Below, piece after piece: positions 48,473-54,640 of a DNA stretch of 54,640 bases; within the stretch, counting starts at the first letter, position 1; each line of letters starts with the position of its first letter. The notes beneath the pieces were generated by a model. It was not told where the DNA came from. It ran no database searches and saw nothing but the letters and a program-made list of their open reading frames with translations. This DNA comes from a bacterium (lineage in GTDB: Bacteria > Myxococcota_A > UBA9160 > SZUA-336), in the NCBI GenBank assembly GCA_024226335.1, contig JAAELY010000358.1, positions 1 to 54,640 of the forward strand. Direction: 5' to 3'. The translations under genes were made by a program, and so were the position numbers.

Positions 48473-49807
48473 CTATTCCATCTCCGCTGGAAGCTGTATC
48501 GCGCCGGATTCATCCTCTTCGAGCTCAACCTCCAACTGCTTCTCTCTGCGCCTTTCTGCGCGTTCGCGCTCCATCTGAGCTGCAAGCGCGTCGCGAAACT
48601 CCTCACCGAGTTCGTCCAGACGATTCTCGAGCAGCCGTCTCCGCCGTTCGAGCAACCGGCTGGTCAGGCGTTGACGTCCCGCCCCGGACAAGAGGTGCAC
48701 ATCAATCGTCTGCATCGCTTCGAGACCATCGCTCGAAAGAGCGCGAACATCGACCTGATTCACTCCCTCGGTCAATTCGACGACGCCAGAGAAACTCCCG
48801 TCGGCAGCCAGGTGAGTAAACTCGGCGGGAACGTGATTGGTGCGGTTCACGATCTCGATCTCGGCGATCTCGGCCAGGCGAATGTCACTGAAGGTCGCAA
48901 CCAGGTCGCGGGGATGCCGTACGGCCGTGTAGGTTCCGCCTGTGAGGTGAGCCAAAGCCTCCAGGACTTCGGGTTGCTCCGTCGATTCCGGACTGATACC
49001 GAAGGCGTGCAGGCGAACGGTCTCGAGAGCTGCGCGCTCCGCGGCCTCGAGCGCACGACGAGCATTCTCACTTGGACGGTTCGGCACCGGGAGAGTTGGC
49101 TGTCCGTCAGTCATGAAGAGAACGACCCTGCGGCTGCGATACTCGGGGTCGCTCGATCGTCGGCTAAAGGTCGACAGCTCGGCAACGGCAACATCTATCG
49201 CATTCGGAATATTCGTCATGCCCGCTGAACCCATTTCGAGCAGGCGGTCGAGCGCGTCCTCCACTTGTGCGTAGTCATCGGTCAACGGAACGACCGTGAA
49301 GGCATCCGGTTCTTCACTGTAGTCGTCTCCTGCGAACGCAACGATGCCGACACGCGAGGTATCGGGTTCGAGTTGCGAAAGCAGCGTGCGGGCTGCGGCG
49401 ACCTCGGCGGCCAGTATGCTGTCGCCGAGGTCATCACTTTCCAGCGAGATGAAGCGCGGCAGAAACGGCAGCCATTGCGCAAAGGGCATCCGGCCCAGCC
49501 GTCCATCTCCATCGACGTCCGCACCCGATGGTGCGCGGGTACTGGCCGAGGTGTCGATGACGATCAGGACTTCGAACGCCTGCAGCCAGCTCGACGGATT
49601 GCCATCCGCCAGACGTAGAGCGCGCCCGGAGACGAAGGCGAGCGCCTGGTCACTATCGATCTTCGCCCCACTCTCCGGCGTTTCGACCACGAGCCTCAAA
49701 CTCGGATCCGCAGAGATTAAGCCGGGATTAAGAATACATGAAGCCGCACCTGCCAGAAAACAGATCAGCAACACCGAGGGTGGATATGGACATCTGCGAC
49801 GAGACAC
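48473..49807 (-). CDS. VWA-domain lipoprotein
   Basis: The 444-residue product has a lipoprotein-like signal (VLLICFLAGAASCI, Cys24) and a von Willebrand A domain (about 75-310). The MIDAS is DTSAS (Asp85-Ser87-Ser89) with the later Thr/Asp in SAGMTNIP and FMTDGQPT. It also has FSDIRLAEIAEIEI, then an Ig-like beta region (FTHLAADGSFSGVVELTEGVN). The end is an Arg/Glu-rich coiled coil (about 385-435). It probably binds metal and a protein partner in the periplasm or at the surface. Start codon GTG. It is divergent from the cytochrome operon. Confidence 0.8.
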   Translation of the reverse strand: MSRRRCPYPPSVLLICFLAGAASCILNPGLISADPSLRLVVETPESGAKIDSDQALAFVSGRALRLADGNPSSWLQAFEVLIVIDTSASTRAPSGADVDGDGRLGRMPFAQWLPFLPRFISLESDDLGDSILAAEVAAARTLLSQLEPDTSRVGIVAFAGDDYSEEPDAFTVVPLTDDYAQVEDALDRLLEMGSAGMTNIPNAIDVAVAELSTFSRRSSDPEYRSRRVVLFMTDGQPTLPVPNRPSENARRALEAAERAALETVRLHAFGISPESTEQPEVLEALAHLTGGTYTAVRHPRDLVATFSDIRLAEIAEIEIVNRTNHVPAEFTHLAADGSFSGVVELTEGVNQVDVRALSSDGLEAMQTIDVHLLSGAGRQRLTSRLLERRRRLLENRLDELGEEFRDALAAQMERERAERRREKQLEVELEEDESGAIQLPAEME

Positions 49808-50001
49808 GACAACAGGATACTAGATCGCCGAAAGCACCGCGGCCATCTGAATGAGCCTCTTCCGCTGAGTCGAAGCGGCTACACAATCTTGAGGCGTGAG
49901 TGACATCACGAGTTCATTCCGGATTTCGACGAAGCGACAGTGACGGTGGTCACGTCGACGACTGGCGAGTTTTCGGTAGTTTGACTCAGATGGTGGTGAG
50001 A

Positions 50002-50814
50002 ATGGACGCGGACTCGATCGAAGCCCCGGCCCGTGCGGGGGCTGGTTCGCGAATCCTGATAGCTCTCTGCTTCGCCCTGCTCGCGTTTGCGTGGTGGGTA
50101 CGAGATGAGCGCTACGTACAGGCCGAGGCCGGTCTCGGCTATGCACTCGGTGTTCTGGGTGCGTCCATGATGCTGCTCCTTCTGCTCTACTCGGTGCGCA
50201 AGCGGGCGCGCTGGTTGAGTTCTGCCGGCCCACTTCGAACCTGGTTCCGCATCCACATGTGGCTCGGTCTCGCGGGTCCGCTGCTCATCATCTTGCACAG
50301 TGGGTTCAAGTTCGGGTCACTCAATAGTTCGATCGCGCTTCTGGCCATGCTCCTGGTCGCGGGTAGCGGTGTCGTCGGTCGCGTGATCTACGCGAAGATC
50401 CACTACGGCCTATACGGGCGCCGCCTGCACCTGCGAGAGAAACTGGCGGAGTTCACGGAGGCGAACGGCAAGCTGCGCCCACTTTTGGACGCGTTTCCGG
50501 AAGTCATGGGACCGCTGCGAGAATTCGAGCGGGAGTTCAGCAGTTCGCCTCCCGGCGCATCCGCAGCGGGTCTTCAATTGGCCAGACTGGGCCCCGCTTC
50601 GCGCCGCACGCGCGAACGATGCGATCGGCTGCTCGAAGCCCCACTCGGAGAAGAGCGAGCGGCCGCTCGCGAGTATCTGCGTCTCGCGGGCCGCGTCGGT
50701 GAGTTTGCCTGCTATGAGCGCTTGTTTCGGCTCTGGCATGCCGTGCACGTCCCATTGTTCGTAACCACCATCCTCTCGCTAGCGATCCATGTCGTCGCCG
50801 TCCACATGTATTAG
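50002..50814 (+). CDS. b-type cytochrome-like membrane protein
   Basis: A 270-residue inner-membrane protein with five hydrophobic segments (about 16-34, 45-63, 80-100, 108-128 and 247-268). Histidines fall in membrane segments as in dihaem b proteins: FRIHMWLGLAGPLLIILHSG (two His) and LWHAVHVPLFVTTILSLAIH (three His). A helical, charged loop of about 115 residues lies before the last segment. It would take electrons from quinol and pass them to the following cytochromes; that is inference. ATG 50002 and ATG 49990 are both possible starts; GTG codons between them do not help decide. The end overlaps the next gene by 26 bases. Confidence 0.72.
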   Translation: MDADSIEAPARAGAGSRILIALCFALLAFAWWVRDERYVQAEAGLGYALGVLGASMMLLLLLYSVRKRARWLSSAGPLRTWFRIHMWLGLAGPLLIILHSGFKFGSLNSSIALLAMLLVAGSGVVGRVIYAKIHYGLYGRRLHLREKLAEFTEANGKLRPLLDAFPEVMGPLREFEREFSSSPPGASAAGLQLARLGPASRRTRERCDRLLEAPLGEERAAAREYLRLAGRVGEFACYERLFRLWHAVHVPLFVTTILSLAIHVVAVHMY

Positions 50815-52372
50815 GCGCCTGGGCAGTGCGTACCTGGTCGCGGTCTTGTGGCTGTACGCTCCGGCAGTGGCCGCTCAGAACTGGGAACGCCTGATCATGC
50901 CGGGTCCGGTGATCGAAGCCCACGCAGAGTTCGAAGGTGAATGCAGCCAATGCCATCGACCCTTTCGCAAACTCGAGCAGCGAGAACTCTGCCTGGACTG
51001 TCACGATCACGCTCCCATCGCGGACGACATCAATGCCCTTGCGGGATTCCACGGCGGCGCCACAGTTCGCTCGGTAGAGTGCAGCCGCTGTCATACCGAG
51101 CACATCGGCCGCGAAGCAGACGTCGTCGGACTCGACCCGAGCAGTTTCGACCATTCACTCACAGACTACGCACTTCGCGGCCGACACCGGACTGCTTCCT
51201 GCGCGAAATGTCACGAGACGGGTCGGCCTCACCGGGAAGCACCCGCGAAATGCTCCGATTGCCACGGAGAAGACGATCCGCATCGCGGGGCACTCGGAGA
51301 GACCTGCGCCGATTGCCACGACGAGTCGAGTTGGAGAAAGGCCGAATTCGAGCATTCGAAGACCGAGTTCCCTCTGATCGGTCGTCACGCCAAGGTGCCC
51401 TGTGTCTCCTGTCACCCTGATGAGCACTATTCCCCGACGCCAACGGACTGCATTTCGTGTCACGACGGCGTTCACGACCCGCACGCTGGACGTTACGGCC
51501 GGGACTGCCGAACCTGCCACACGGCCCATGGCTGGGATCGAATCGAGTTTCAGCACGACAAAGATACCGACTTCGCACTGCGCGGAAGCCACCGTTCCCT
51601 CGCATGTGATTCGTGTCACACCGGCCCTTCAATTCAAGACAAGCTGGAACGAAGCTGCGCCACATGCCACCGGGCCGATGATCAACACAAAGGACGCTTT
51701 GGCGAGAACTGTGTCGAGTGTCACAGCGAGAAATCGTGGAAGGACGAAAAGTTTGATCACGGACAGACGGTATTCCCCCTGCACGGAGCCCACCGCTCCG
51801 TCAGTTGCTTGCGATGCCATACGGGCGTCCTCGAAAAGGCGGAAGTCACCCGGACCTGCCAGAACTGTCATCCCGGAGACGATGTGCACGCAGGCCAGCA
51901 GGGAGAGAGTTGTGAGCAATGCCACAACGCGGAAGGTTGGACGAAACGTGTCTTTTTCGAACACGACCTGACCCGGTTTCCGCTGCTCGGAGTCCACGCC
52001 GCAGCCGCCTGCGAGGAGTGCCATACGAACTCCCGCTTCCAGGATACTTCGACGAGTTGCCAGGAATGCCACGCATCTCATGACTTCCACAAGGGCACCA
52101 TGGGCTCCGAGTGCTCACACTGCCACAACCCCAATGGATGGAACTTCTGGACTTTCGACCATGCGCAGCAGACGGATTTCGCACTGGACGGTGCGCACGA
52201 AGGCCGACTCTGCCACGACTGCCACACGACCAGGGTCCAGGGCAAGCTCTCGCGTTCTTCTTCTTGCAATAGCTGTCACCGAGACGACGATATTCACCTG
52301 AGCCGCTTCGGCATCGATTGCGCTCGCTGTCACACCAATGAGCGTTGGAACGTCATCCGGAGAATTCGGTGA
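50789..52372 (+). CDS. 21-haem c-type cytochrome
   Basis: A 527-residue exported cytochrome with a signal peptide (about 10-28, ending PAVAAQ) and 21 CXXCH motifs. Three haems come first. Then six modules of about 60-70 residues follow, each with the order FxH, (F/Y)xLxGxH, CXXCH, CXXCH, (D/H)xHxG, CXXCH and W. Conserved His in FxH, GxH and DxH are probable distal ligands. The protein lies in the periplasm or at the cell surface. It starts inside the upstream gene and its stop overlaps the next cytochrome GTG (GTGA). The architecture fits long-range electron transfer. Confidence 0.92.
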   Translation: MSSPSTCIRRLGSAYLVAVLWLYAPAVAAQNWERLIMPGPVIEAHAEFEGECSQCHRPFRKLEQRELCLDCHDHAPIADDINALAGFHGGATVRSVECSRCHTEHIGREADVVGLDPSSFDHSLTDYALRGRHRTASCAKCHETGRPHREAPAKCSDCHGEDDPHRGALGETCADCHDESSWRKAEFEHSKTEFPLIGRHAKVPCVSCHPDEHYSPTPTDCISCHDGVHDPHAGRYGRDCRTCHTAHGWDRIEFQHDKDTDFALRGSHRSLACDSCHTGPSIQDKLERSCATCHRADDQHKGRFGENCVECHSEKSWKDEKFDHGQTVFPLHGAHRSVSCLRCHTGVLEKAEVTRTCQNCHPGDDVHAGQQGESCEQCHNAEGWTKRVFFEHDLTRFPLLGVHAAAACEECHTNSRFQDTSTSCQECHASHDFHKGTMGSECSHCHNPNGWNFWTFDHAQQTDFALDGAHEGRLCHDCHTTRVQGKLSRSSSCNSCHRDDDIHLSRFGIDCARCHTNERWNVIRRIR

Positions 52373-54640
52373 AGTTCGTCTCGCTGACGCTGACGTGCCT
52401 GATCTGGACCCTCTCTGCATTCGCTCAAGAGCGTACCGCCAGCGACTTCGACCACTTTCGAACTCAGTTCCCGCTCACAGGTGTACACGAGCGCGTGCCG
52501 TGCGAGTCCTGTCACGTGAGGGGAGTCTTCGAAGGCACACCCACGAATTGTGCTGTTTGCCACGGCACGGCCAGCGAATTGGCCACTACGCGCAAGACCG
52601 TCTCTCACGTCCCCACGAATCGCGGCTGTGAGGACTGCCATCGCACAATGGCCTGGAGCGACGCCCGTTTCGATCACGGCGGAATCAGCGCGAGTTGCGC
52701 GAAATGCCACAACGGGATCTTCGCAAAGGCCAAGGGCCCGACCCACGTCGAGAGCTCTGAAGCGTGTGAGACTTGCCACGGAACGCTGAGTTTCGCGGTT
52801 GGCCGCTTCGACCACGCCGGCACCAGTGGCAGCTGCTCGAGTTGTCACAATGGAGTCAATGCGGGAGGGAAATCGCCAGGGCATGTTCAGAGTTCGAGCA
52901 ACTGCCAGGACTGCCATACAACGGCCGCCTGGACCGGCGGAAGTTTCGACCACAGCGGCACGAGCACGGGTTGCTTGAACTGCCATGACGGAGTCGTGGC
53001 GACCGGCAAATCCGCCACGCACATTCCGACCGGAAATGACTGCGAGAGTTGCCACACCACCGCCTCCTGGACAGCCGAAGGCTTCGACCACACAGGTGTC
53101 ACGACCGGATGTGCCACCTGCCACGAAGGAACTCTTGCAACAGGCAAGTCCCCAAGCCACCTACCAAGCGGAAACGACTGCGAGAGCTGCCACACGACGG
53201 CCGCATGGACGGGCGGCAGCTTCTCCCACAGCGGAATCACCAACGGTTGCAGCAGTTGCCACGATGGCATCCAGGGAACGGGCAAGTCCCCAAGCCACCT
53301 ACCAAGCGGAAATGACTGCGAGAGCTGCCACACGACGGCCGCATGGACAGGCGGCAGCTTCTCCCACAGCGGAATCACCAACGGTTGCAGCAGTTGCCAC
53401 GATGGCATCCAGGGAACAGGCAAGTCTGCAAACCACATTCCGAGTGGAAATGACTGCGAGAGCTGCCACACGACGGCTGCATGGACGGGCGGCAGCTTCT
53501 CCCACAGCGGAATCACCAACGGTTGCAGCAGTTGCCACGACGGCATCCAGGGAACGGGCAAGTCTGCAAACCACATTCCGAGTGGAAATGACTGCGAGAG
53601 TTGCCACACGACGGCTGCATGGACGGGCGGTAGTTTCTCTCACAGCGGAATCACCAACGGTTGCAGCAGTTGTCACAATGGCATCCAGGGAACAGGCAAG
53701 TCTGCAAACCACATTCCGAGCGGAAATGACTGCGAGAGTTGCCACACGACGGCCGCATGGAACGGCGGAAGTTTTGATCACACAGGCAACACGCTCAGCT
53801 GCAATAACTGCCACAACGGTATTCAAGCCACTGGGAAGACGAATAGTCACATTACCAGTTCGAATGCCTGCCAGGATTGCCACAGCACCAGCTCGTGGAT
53901 CGTGGGCAACTTCAGCCATGCCGGGATCACGAGTGATTGCACCAGCTGCCACAACGGCAGCCAGGCCGCAGGCAAGACTCCTACGCATATCCAGAGTTCC
54001 AATACCTGCGAGGATTGCCACAATACGGCGTCCTGGATTCCCGCTGGTTTCAGCCACGCAGGCATCACGAGTGGTTGCACTACTTGCCACAACGGCGTGC
54101 AAGCCGCGGGCAAGACGCCTACGCATATCCAGACTTCGAACACCTGCGAGCAATGCCACACGACCTCGGCGTGGCTCCCCGCCGTATTCAGCCACGCGGG
54201 CATCACGAGCGGTTGCACCACTTGCCACAACGGCGTACAAGCCGCGGGCAAGACGCCTACGCATATCCAGACTTCGAACACCTGCGAGCAATGCCACACG
54301 ACCTCGGCGTGGCTCCCCGCCGCATTCAGCCACGCGGGCATCACGAGCGGTTGCACCACTTGCCACAACGGTGTCCAGGCCCCGGGCAAAACGCCAACTC
54401 ACATCCAGAGCACCAACAGTTGTCAGGATTGCCACGGGACCCAAGCCTGGATTCCGGCGAGCTTCAGCCACTCCGGAGTTACGAGCGGATGCTCGAGCTG
54501 CCACAACGGTGTGCAAGCCACGGGCAAGACACCTACGCATATCCAGACTTCGAACACCTGCGAGCAATGCCACACGACTTCGGCCTGGCTCCCCGCAGCC
54601 TTCAGCCACGCGGGCATCACGAGCGGTTGCACCACTTGCC
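52369..54640 (+). CDS. Giant repeat multihaem cytochrome, cut by window end
   Basis: The open frame starts at a GTG in a GTGA overlap with the 21-haem gene and runs off the window, so it has no visible stop: 757 codons plus one base. The signal peptide is MKFVSLTLTCLIWTLSAFA. The first module (FDH-FPLTGVH-CESCH-CAVCH) is like those of the upstream cytochrome. From 52627 the protein is a chain of 46-residue units, each with two CXXCH and the pattern W-xxxx-FxHxG-xxxx-CXXCH-(N/D)G-xx-xGK-xxxH. First cysteines fall every 138 bases from 52627 to 54559. It has 31 complete CXXCH, and a 32nd is cut. The His of FxHxG is a candidate axial ligand. Confidence 0.93.
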   Translation, partial: MKFVSLTLTCLIWTLSAFAQERTASDFDHFRTQFPLTGVHERVPCESCHVRGVFEGTPTNCAVCHGTASELATTRKTVSHVPTNRGCEDCHRTMAWSDARFDHGGISASCAKCHNGIFAKAKGPTHVESSEACETCHGTLSFAVGRFDHAGTSGSCSSCHNGVNAGGKSPGHVQSSSNCQDCHTTAAWTGGSFDHSGTSTGCLNCHDGVVATGKSATHIPTGNDCESCHTTASWTAEGFDHTGVTTGCATCHEGTLATGKSPSHLPSGNDCESCHTTAAWTGGSFSHSGITNGCSSCHDGIQGTGKSPSHLPSGNDCESCHTTAAWTGGSFSHSGITNGCSSCHDGIQGTGKSANHIPSGNDCESCHTTAAWTGGSFSHSGITNGCSSCHDGIQGTGKSANHIPSGNDCESCHTTAAWTGGSFSHSGITNGCSSCHNGIQGTGKSANHIPSGNDCESCHTTAAWNGGSFDHTGNTLSCNNCHNGIQATGKTNSHITSSNACQDCHSTSSWIVGNFSHAGITSDCTSCHNGSQAAGKTPTHIQSSNTCEDCHNTASWIPAGFSHAGITSGCTTCHNGVQAAGKTPTHIQTSNTCEQCHTTSAWLPAVFSHAGITSGCTTCHNGVQAAGKTPTHIQTSNTCEQCHTTSAWLPAAFSHAGITSGCTTCHNGVQAPGKTPTHIQSTNSCQDCHGTQAWIPASFSHSGVTSGCSSCHNGVQATGKTPTHIQTSNTCEQCHTTSAWLPAAFSHAGITSGCTTC
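52627..54640 (+). repeat. 138-bp tandem coding repeat, about 14.6 units
   Basis: Units begin at 52627, 52765, 52903, 53041, 53179, 53317, 53455, 53593, 53731, 53869, 54007, 54145, 54283, 54421 and 54559, an exact 138-base period with no indel. Units at 53317 and 53455 differ at four bases, all synonymous. Units at 54145, 54283 and 54559 are also nearly alike over their first part. Two families are visible: an early GGSFSHSGITNG type (53179-53730) and a late PAAFSHAGITSG type (54007 onward). Confidence 0.95.

Follow-up and report, generated by a model that had tools for sequence, protein, structure and literature searches.

The closest described counterparts of the locus studied here are the PCC3 porin-cytochrome clusters, which He et al. 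2017 (PMC5566968) found in Alpha-, Beta- and Gammaproteobacteria; their extracellular cytochromes have up to 85 haem sites, arranged in haem-bearing repeat units at 22-39 residues per haem. The signature of the PCC3 inner-membrane protein (IMP) is a length of ~300 aa, two WX3HX13H motifs, an SGXXG motif and five transmembrane helices. In these clusters the IMP gene lies beside that of a periplasmic cytochrome with ~21 haem sites, and a porin gene adjoins. PCC3 has been characterised as functionally unverified (PMC12442390).

Several other systems bear comparison. The Geobacter periplasmic c7 polymers (TIGR04257, 'nanowire_3heme') share with the cytochrome described below a linear tandem build, ~23 residues per haem and Cytochrome_C7 ancestry, but have three haems per module where there are two here. 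MtrCAB, MtoAB and PioAB likewise combine a porin with a periplasmic multihaem cytochrome; they differ in having 10 haem sites, against at least 45 here, and in their inner-membrane partner. OmcS, OmcE and OmcZ are long-distance haem chains, built as polymers of small subunits and without a sequence match to our cytochrome.

A PCC3 cluster at the end of the contig

The DNA analysed (the window, 54,640 nucleotides) is an entire contig, C358, of an assembly of 5.75 Mb in 556 contigs. Three genes at its end concern us here:

49987-50814, + strand: PCC3 inner-membrane protein (IMP), a predicted two-b-haem cytochrome b; possible start at 49900
50789-52372, + strand: periplasmic multihaem cytochrome of 527 aa, 21 CXXCH in triads (c7-like), Pfam Cytochrome_C7 at 6e-29
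52369-54640, + strand: giant cytochrome (the PCC3 'extracellular' multihaem cytochrome), starting at a GTG that overlaps the TGA of the gene before it

The gene order is IMP, 21-haem cytochrome, giant cytochrome and then, past a contig join treated below, a porin, the same order as in Slit_1446-1449 of S. lithotrophicus ES-1 (PMC12016527). The IMP, an ORF of 304 aa (49900-50814) that was aligned with 9 relatives from the window's class, holds both WX3HX13H motifs and SGVVG; in the 275-residue reading these are W86..H104, W250..H268 and SGVVG at 127. A simple hydropathy scan gave four helices, with the WX3HX13H helix at 86-104 falling under its threshold. The gene for the periplasmic cytochrome overlaps that for the IMP, and its haem spacing is repeated in relatives. 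The porin-like protein, of 716 aa, is probably an outer-membrane barrel, judging by its C-terminal YRYEF and its position. Because both the order of the genes and the motifs diagnostic of the IMP agree with the description by He et al. 2017, the giant cytochrome is, on the evidence of its sequence and neighbours, a member of PCC3 and no new kind of protein. A vWA gene upstream of the IMP (48473-49807, - strand) has no relative in other loci and was excluded from the cluster.

Compared with the published extracellular cytochromes of PCC3 (PMC5566968; Gallionellaceae pangenome 2023, PMC10734462), the locus is alike in gene order and IMP motifs, in its ~25 residues per haem and large haem number, and in Thr/Ser/Ala/Gly-rich repeats with haem sites; it differs in a near-perfect 23-residue spacing, in its 'Deltaproteobacteria/Myxococcales' host, and in that the porin is followed, on one strand, by flavoprotein and ankyrin genes. 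The original prediction had set the regularity of the repeat against the irregular spacing of most known large cytochromes, a contrast that is not supported, as haem-bearing repeat units in PCC3 were already in He et al. 2017. Its reading of the protein as a long electron bridge fares better and would fit the position in a porin-cytochrome cluster. Relative to PCC3 as described in the open-access papers covered, the locus and its relatives add the host class, the link to a flavoprotein, and rules by which haem number steps by two or by three. We put at roughly 75% the probability that the product of the giant gene is the outer ('extracellular') multihaem cytochrome in a PCC3 conduit and that this protein is a linear haem wire; the wire would link something extracellular to the porin-spanning cytochrome of the periplasm.

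The giant cytochrome continues past the window

Within the window, 52369-54638 translates into 756 stop-free codons with 31 CXXCH and is open at the contig end, in agreement with the 31 motifs and missing stop that had been predicted. The end of the contig coincides with the start of another:

54514-54640, + strand: exact overlap of 127 bases, by sequence identity, with contig C60 where that contig, reversed, begins

Along the reversed C60 the frame runs on for 365 codons past the window and then stops (L004:18244), so that the objection of an early end, raised with the prediction, is answered by a frame that goes on into a conserved cap. The extension to a stop codon and the haem count proposed at that time give a joined protein of at least 1121 aa with 45 CXXCH, where ~0.6 would be expected from composition alone, and one C-terminal CX3CH. 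The composition is rich in small residues and there are 24.9 residues per CXXCH, within the 22-39 published for PCC3. The C-terminal cap is common to relatives, and of 50 complete long cytochromes, some of them periplasmic, 25 likewise have CX3CH in the tail. Since the break in the assembly falls within the repeat, the module count across the junction is a lower bound.

It could be argued that the join to C60 and the number of repeats are artefacts of assembly, given a contig broken within a near-identical repeat and an overlap of exactly 127 bases; a fixed-length overlap would be the trace that a graph assembler leaves where a repeat outgrows its word length. However, the exact 127-mer is present at two contig ends only, those of C358 and C60, the frame carries on across the join to close in the cap conserved in the family, and the porin and flavoprotein genes past the join are those that adjoin the IMP in relatives. 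The 31 CXXCH within the window are in any case independent of the join. We believe an artefact to be very improbable.

The N-terminus precedes the repeat with two further features:

52369-52425, + strand: probable signal peptide MKFVSLTLTCLIWTLSAFA, a hydrophobic N-terminus of mean hydropathy 1.53 with an AxA cleavage site inferred by eye
52444-52626, + strand: N-terminal cap, FDHxxTxFxLxGxH followed by haems 1 and 2, kin by alignment to the triads found in the periplasmic cytochrome

The N-termini of relatives resemble the probable signal peptide, and the cap is related to the periplasmic cytochrome at an hhalign probability of 99.5.

A module of two unlike halves

The body of the protein is a tandem array, part of which has been copied recently:

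52627-54640, + strand: two-haem modules of 138 bases (46 residues) in tandem, 14 of them complete and one cut
53179-53730, + strand: run of four modules copied recently, with 93.5-97.1% DNA identity between neighbours

Fifteen units of 138 bases free of insertions and deletions had been predicted; the register indeed holds without an indel from 52627 through 14 complete units, while the fifteenth is cut by the contig end at 82 bases. The joined gene has 20 modules, and the spacing of CXXCH along the joined protein is 16, 26, 23 x 40, 31, 22. The smallest period is thus 23 residues (69 bases), the 46-residue unit consisting of two unlike one-haem halves, C-x-x-C-H-(4)-W-(4)-F-D/S-H and C-x-x-C-H-N-G-(4)-G-K-(3)-H. 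Among 174 units from 44 loci, H5, H17, H28 and H40 are invariant, and W10 and F15 are kept in 97% and 91%; the units were picked by K36, the conservation of which is therefore no evidence. H17 of the first half and H40, which is position 17 of the second, provide one spare histidine per haem of the array, and we suggest that each haem has bis-histidine ligation. The FxHxG histidine singled out by the original prediction is invariant in these units, but it is one of two such histidines, and the glycine of its motif is not conserved.

Of the recently copied modules, those at 53317 and 53455 encode identical protein and differ by silent changes only. Modules 12, 13 and 14 match modules 15, 16 and 17 at 93.5, 92.8 and 85.5% in DNA, which points to a duplication of three modules.

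Among profiles, Pfam Cytochrome_C7 (PF14522) matches with 138.8 bits over 6 stretches, above its gathering cut-off of 24.8. On the array, TIGR04257 (Geobacter c7 nanowire triheme) scores 27.6 bits, below its curated cut-off of 40, and TIGR03508 (MtrA/DmsE decahaem) aligns at 128.1 bits, below its curated cut-off of 192.2. Two AlphaFold2 models made without haem, one of 13 haem sites from a 27-row alignment and one of three stacked modules from 54 rows, had mean pLDDT values of 45 and 53; since both are unusable, haem stacking and conduction are what we infer from the sequence. A profile search of solved structures returned only weak multihaem matches. The best of them, 6r2q_A, is labelled as cystathionine beta-synthase yet has many CXXCH, and is probably a mislabelled cytochrome chain; 6R2Q itself is an entry that we take to be the MtrCAB complex.

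The highly regular modules, the small-residue-rich composition and the N- and C-terminal caps kept in relatives would also suit a free conductive filament, that is, a nanowire polymer of the kind formed by OmcS, OmcE and OmcZ instead of a single wire fixed at the porin. We regard such a filament as improbable: the solved chains of these three proteins gave no match in the profile search, the gene adjoins a porin gene as in a conduit, and polymerisation is not needed, because module number alone gives single proteins their length.

Relatives differ by whole steps of haem number

With a profile of the IMP, 302 relatives were found in genome_contigs, which makes PCC3 widespread in this one genome collection; the best 80 of the 302 are referred to here as the named loci. 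One of these loci is from Bradyrhizobium sp. STM 3843, a bearer of PCC3 according to He et al. 2017 (PMC5566968). Downstream of the IMP, the named loci have a periplasmic multihaem cytochrome and then, mostly, where there is enough contig, a long one; a relative of the porin is found in 43 of them, mostly 3' of the cytochromes.

The number of CXXCH is odd in 22 of the 22 complete regular outer arrays among the named relatives, ranging from 11 to 27. The view of the giant cytochrome as a chain of uniform two-haem modules is thereby upheld, with the module as the unit of growth. No p-value is attached to the odd counts, because related species are not independent samples. We suggest that the length of the array has been tuned by adding and removing entire two-haem modules. 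The periplasmic partners in the 80 related loci follow another step, their haem numbers being multiples of three: of the 71 that are complete, 41 carry 21 haem sites, against 14 with 24, 13 with 18 and two with 27; the remaining one, with 9, comes from a locus with a split frame. The exact two-haem steps offer a clean system in which to study how the length of a haem chain affects electron transfer.

Spacing is irregular or mixed in some outer cytochromes, e.g. those of L051, L102, L116 and L113. In L113, L114, L120 and L121, with 35-47 CXXCH, regular ends flank another super-repeat with a spacing of ~75, 38, 30 and 25.

A haem number that varies from 11 to 47 among relatives while the flanking genes are conserved might also be expected of an electron store, a periplasmic or surface capacitor with little directed conduction, an option raised by Hoover et al. 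(PMC10734462). This explanation has in our view a low probability, as the conserved porin and two-haem-b partners imply transfer across the envelope, and as a two-histidine pattern that does not vary among the modules points to an ordered chain.

A linked flavoprotein and the direction of electron flow

Past the join and beyond the porin, the cluster continues with a gene beyond the PCC3 order described above:

L004:14807-16120 on contig C60, - strand: membrane-anchored ferredoxin-flavoprotein of 437 aa, 3' of the porin

The protein has a membrane segment at its N-terminus and, besides an FAD/NAD(P) domain, two ferredoxin-like motifs. Its gene is better conserved than any other in the cluster, relatives being 49-62% identical. 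Across 14 aligned sequences the first motif is variable at its second cysteine, while in the second motif that cysteine is replaced by H95 in all 14. A relative lies near the IMP in 64 of the 80 named loci (best 80 of 302) and, where at least 5 kb precede the IMP, in 57 of 63, leaving six long loci without a nearby copy. Most named loci have the flavoprotein and IMP genes divergent, and not the former downstream, so that the linkage outlasts rearrangement. Within the window's class the flavoprotein is found in 20 of the 21 genomes having a strong IMP match and in 5 of the 70 without (Fisher p = 1.6e-14). After it comes a gene for a Sel1/ankyrin-repeat protein (L004:12922-14820, - strand, on C60), with relatives in 33 named loci.

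Linkage and co-occurrence together suggest that PCC3 is tied to NAD(P)H or ferredoxin, which its domains make the probable substrates of the flavoprotein. The text of He et al. 2017 has no mention of flavoprotein, FAD or ferredoxin, and the protein, unmentioned in the open-access PCC3 papers covered, is a testable cytoplasmic partner for the pathway. Going by gene content, the order of the chain would be flavoprotein, two b-haems, 21-haem periplasmic cytochrome, porin and giant outer cytochrome, with the flavoprotein linking cytoplasmic NAD(P)H or ferredoxin to the b-haems and outward flow likelier than inward. We tentatively speculate, and would not be surprised to be wrong, that PCC3 is a full route from cytoplasm to outside in the manner of an NADPH oxidase, from NAD(P)H or ferredoxin through flavoprotein and b-haems to 21 and then at least 45 haems.

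Electrons might also travel the other way, with external donors such as minerals or Fe(II) reducing NAD(P)+ or the quinone pool; we consider this unlikely. With such donors the reduction of NAD(P)+ would be energetically uphill, and RuBisCO was not found in the host genome (97% complete); both count against uptake, while the haem-copper oxidases encoded in the genome speak for it. PCC3 is found in Fe(II) oxidisers, and that role has been proposed (PMC5566968). Expression data from such bacteria fall on both sides. In Sideroxydans sp. CL21 the expression of the two PCC3 clusters exceeds the mean, and cells capable of iron oxidation show a rise in one PCC3 IMP gene (PMC12442390); in S. lithotrophicus ES-1, however, PCC3 is down-regulated on Fe(II) (PMC8788666). 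In proteomes of ES-1 the porin and the IMP of PCC3 were detected but its extracellular cytochrome was not (PMC12016527), which counts against the reading of the giant cytochrome as an outer wire. The absence of RuBisCO and the down-regulation in ES-1 thus weakly favour outward flow.

Host and distribution

Judged by shared contig coordinates, the class of the window includes metagenome-assembled genomes deposited as 'Myxococcales bacterium 354-166' and as 'Deltaproteobacteria bacterium' OFTM159, OFTM245 and Meg19_02_Bin_150. Of the 91 genomes of this class, 34 match the IMP profile at E <= 0.001, and 21 of these do so strongly; among 189 sampled genomes of the phylum, 12 match at 1e-40, every one of them in the window's class. 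No relative of the IMP was found on plasmids. In the open-access papers covered we found no earlier description of PCC3 in this 'Deltaproteobacteria/Myxococcales' class.

The same genome holds a second electron-transfer cluster (L135, contig C249:24000-42000), with an 11-CXXCH cytochrome and several other cytochromes, two NHL-repeat-like proteins, a SurA-like protein and a barrel-like protein; in content it resembles the published Uet complex.
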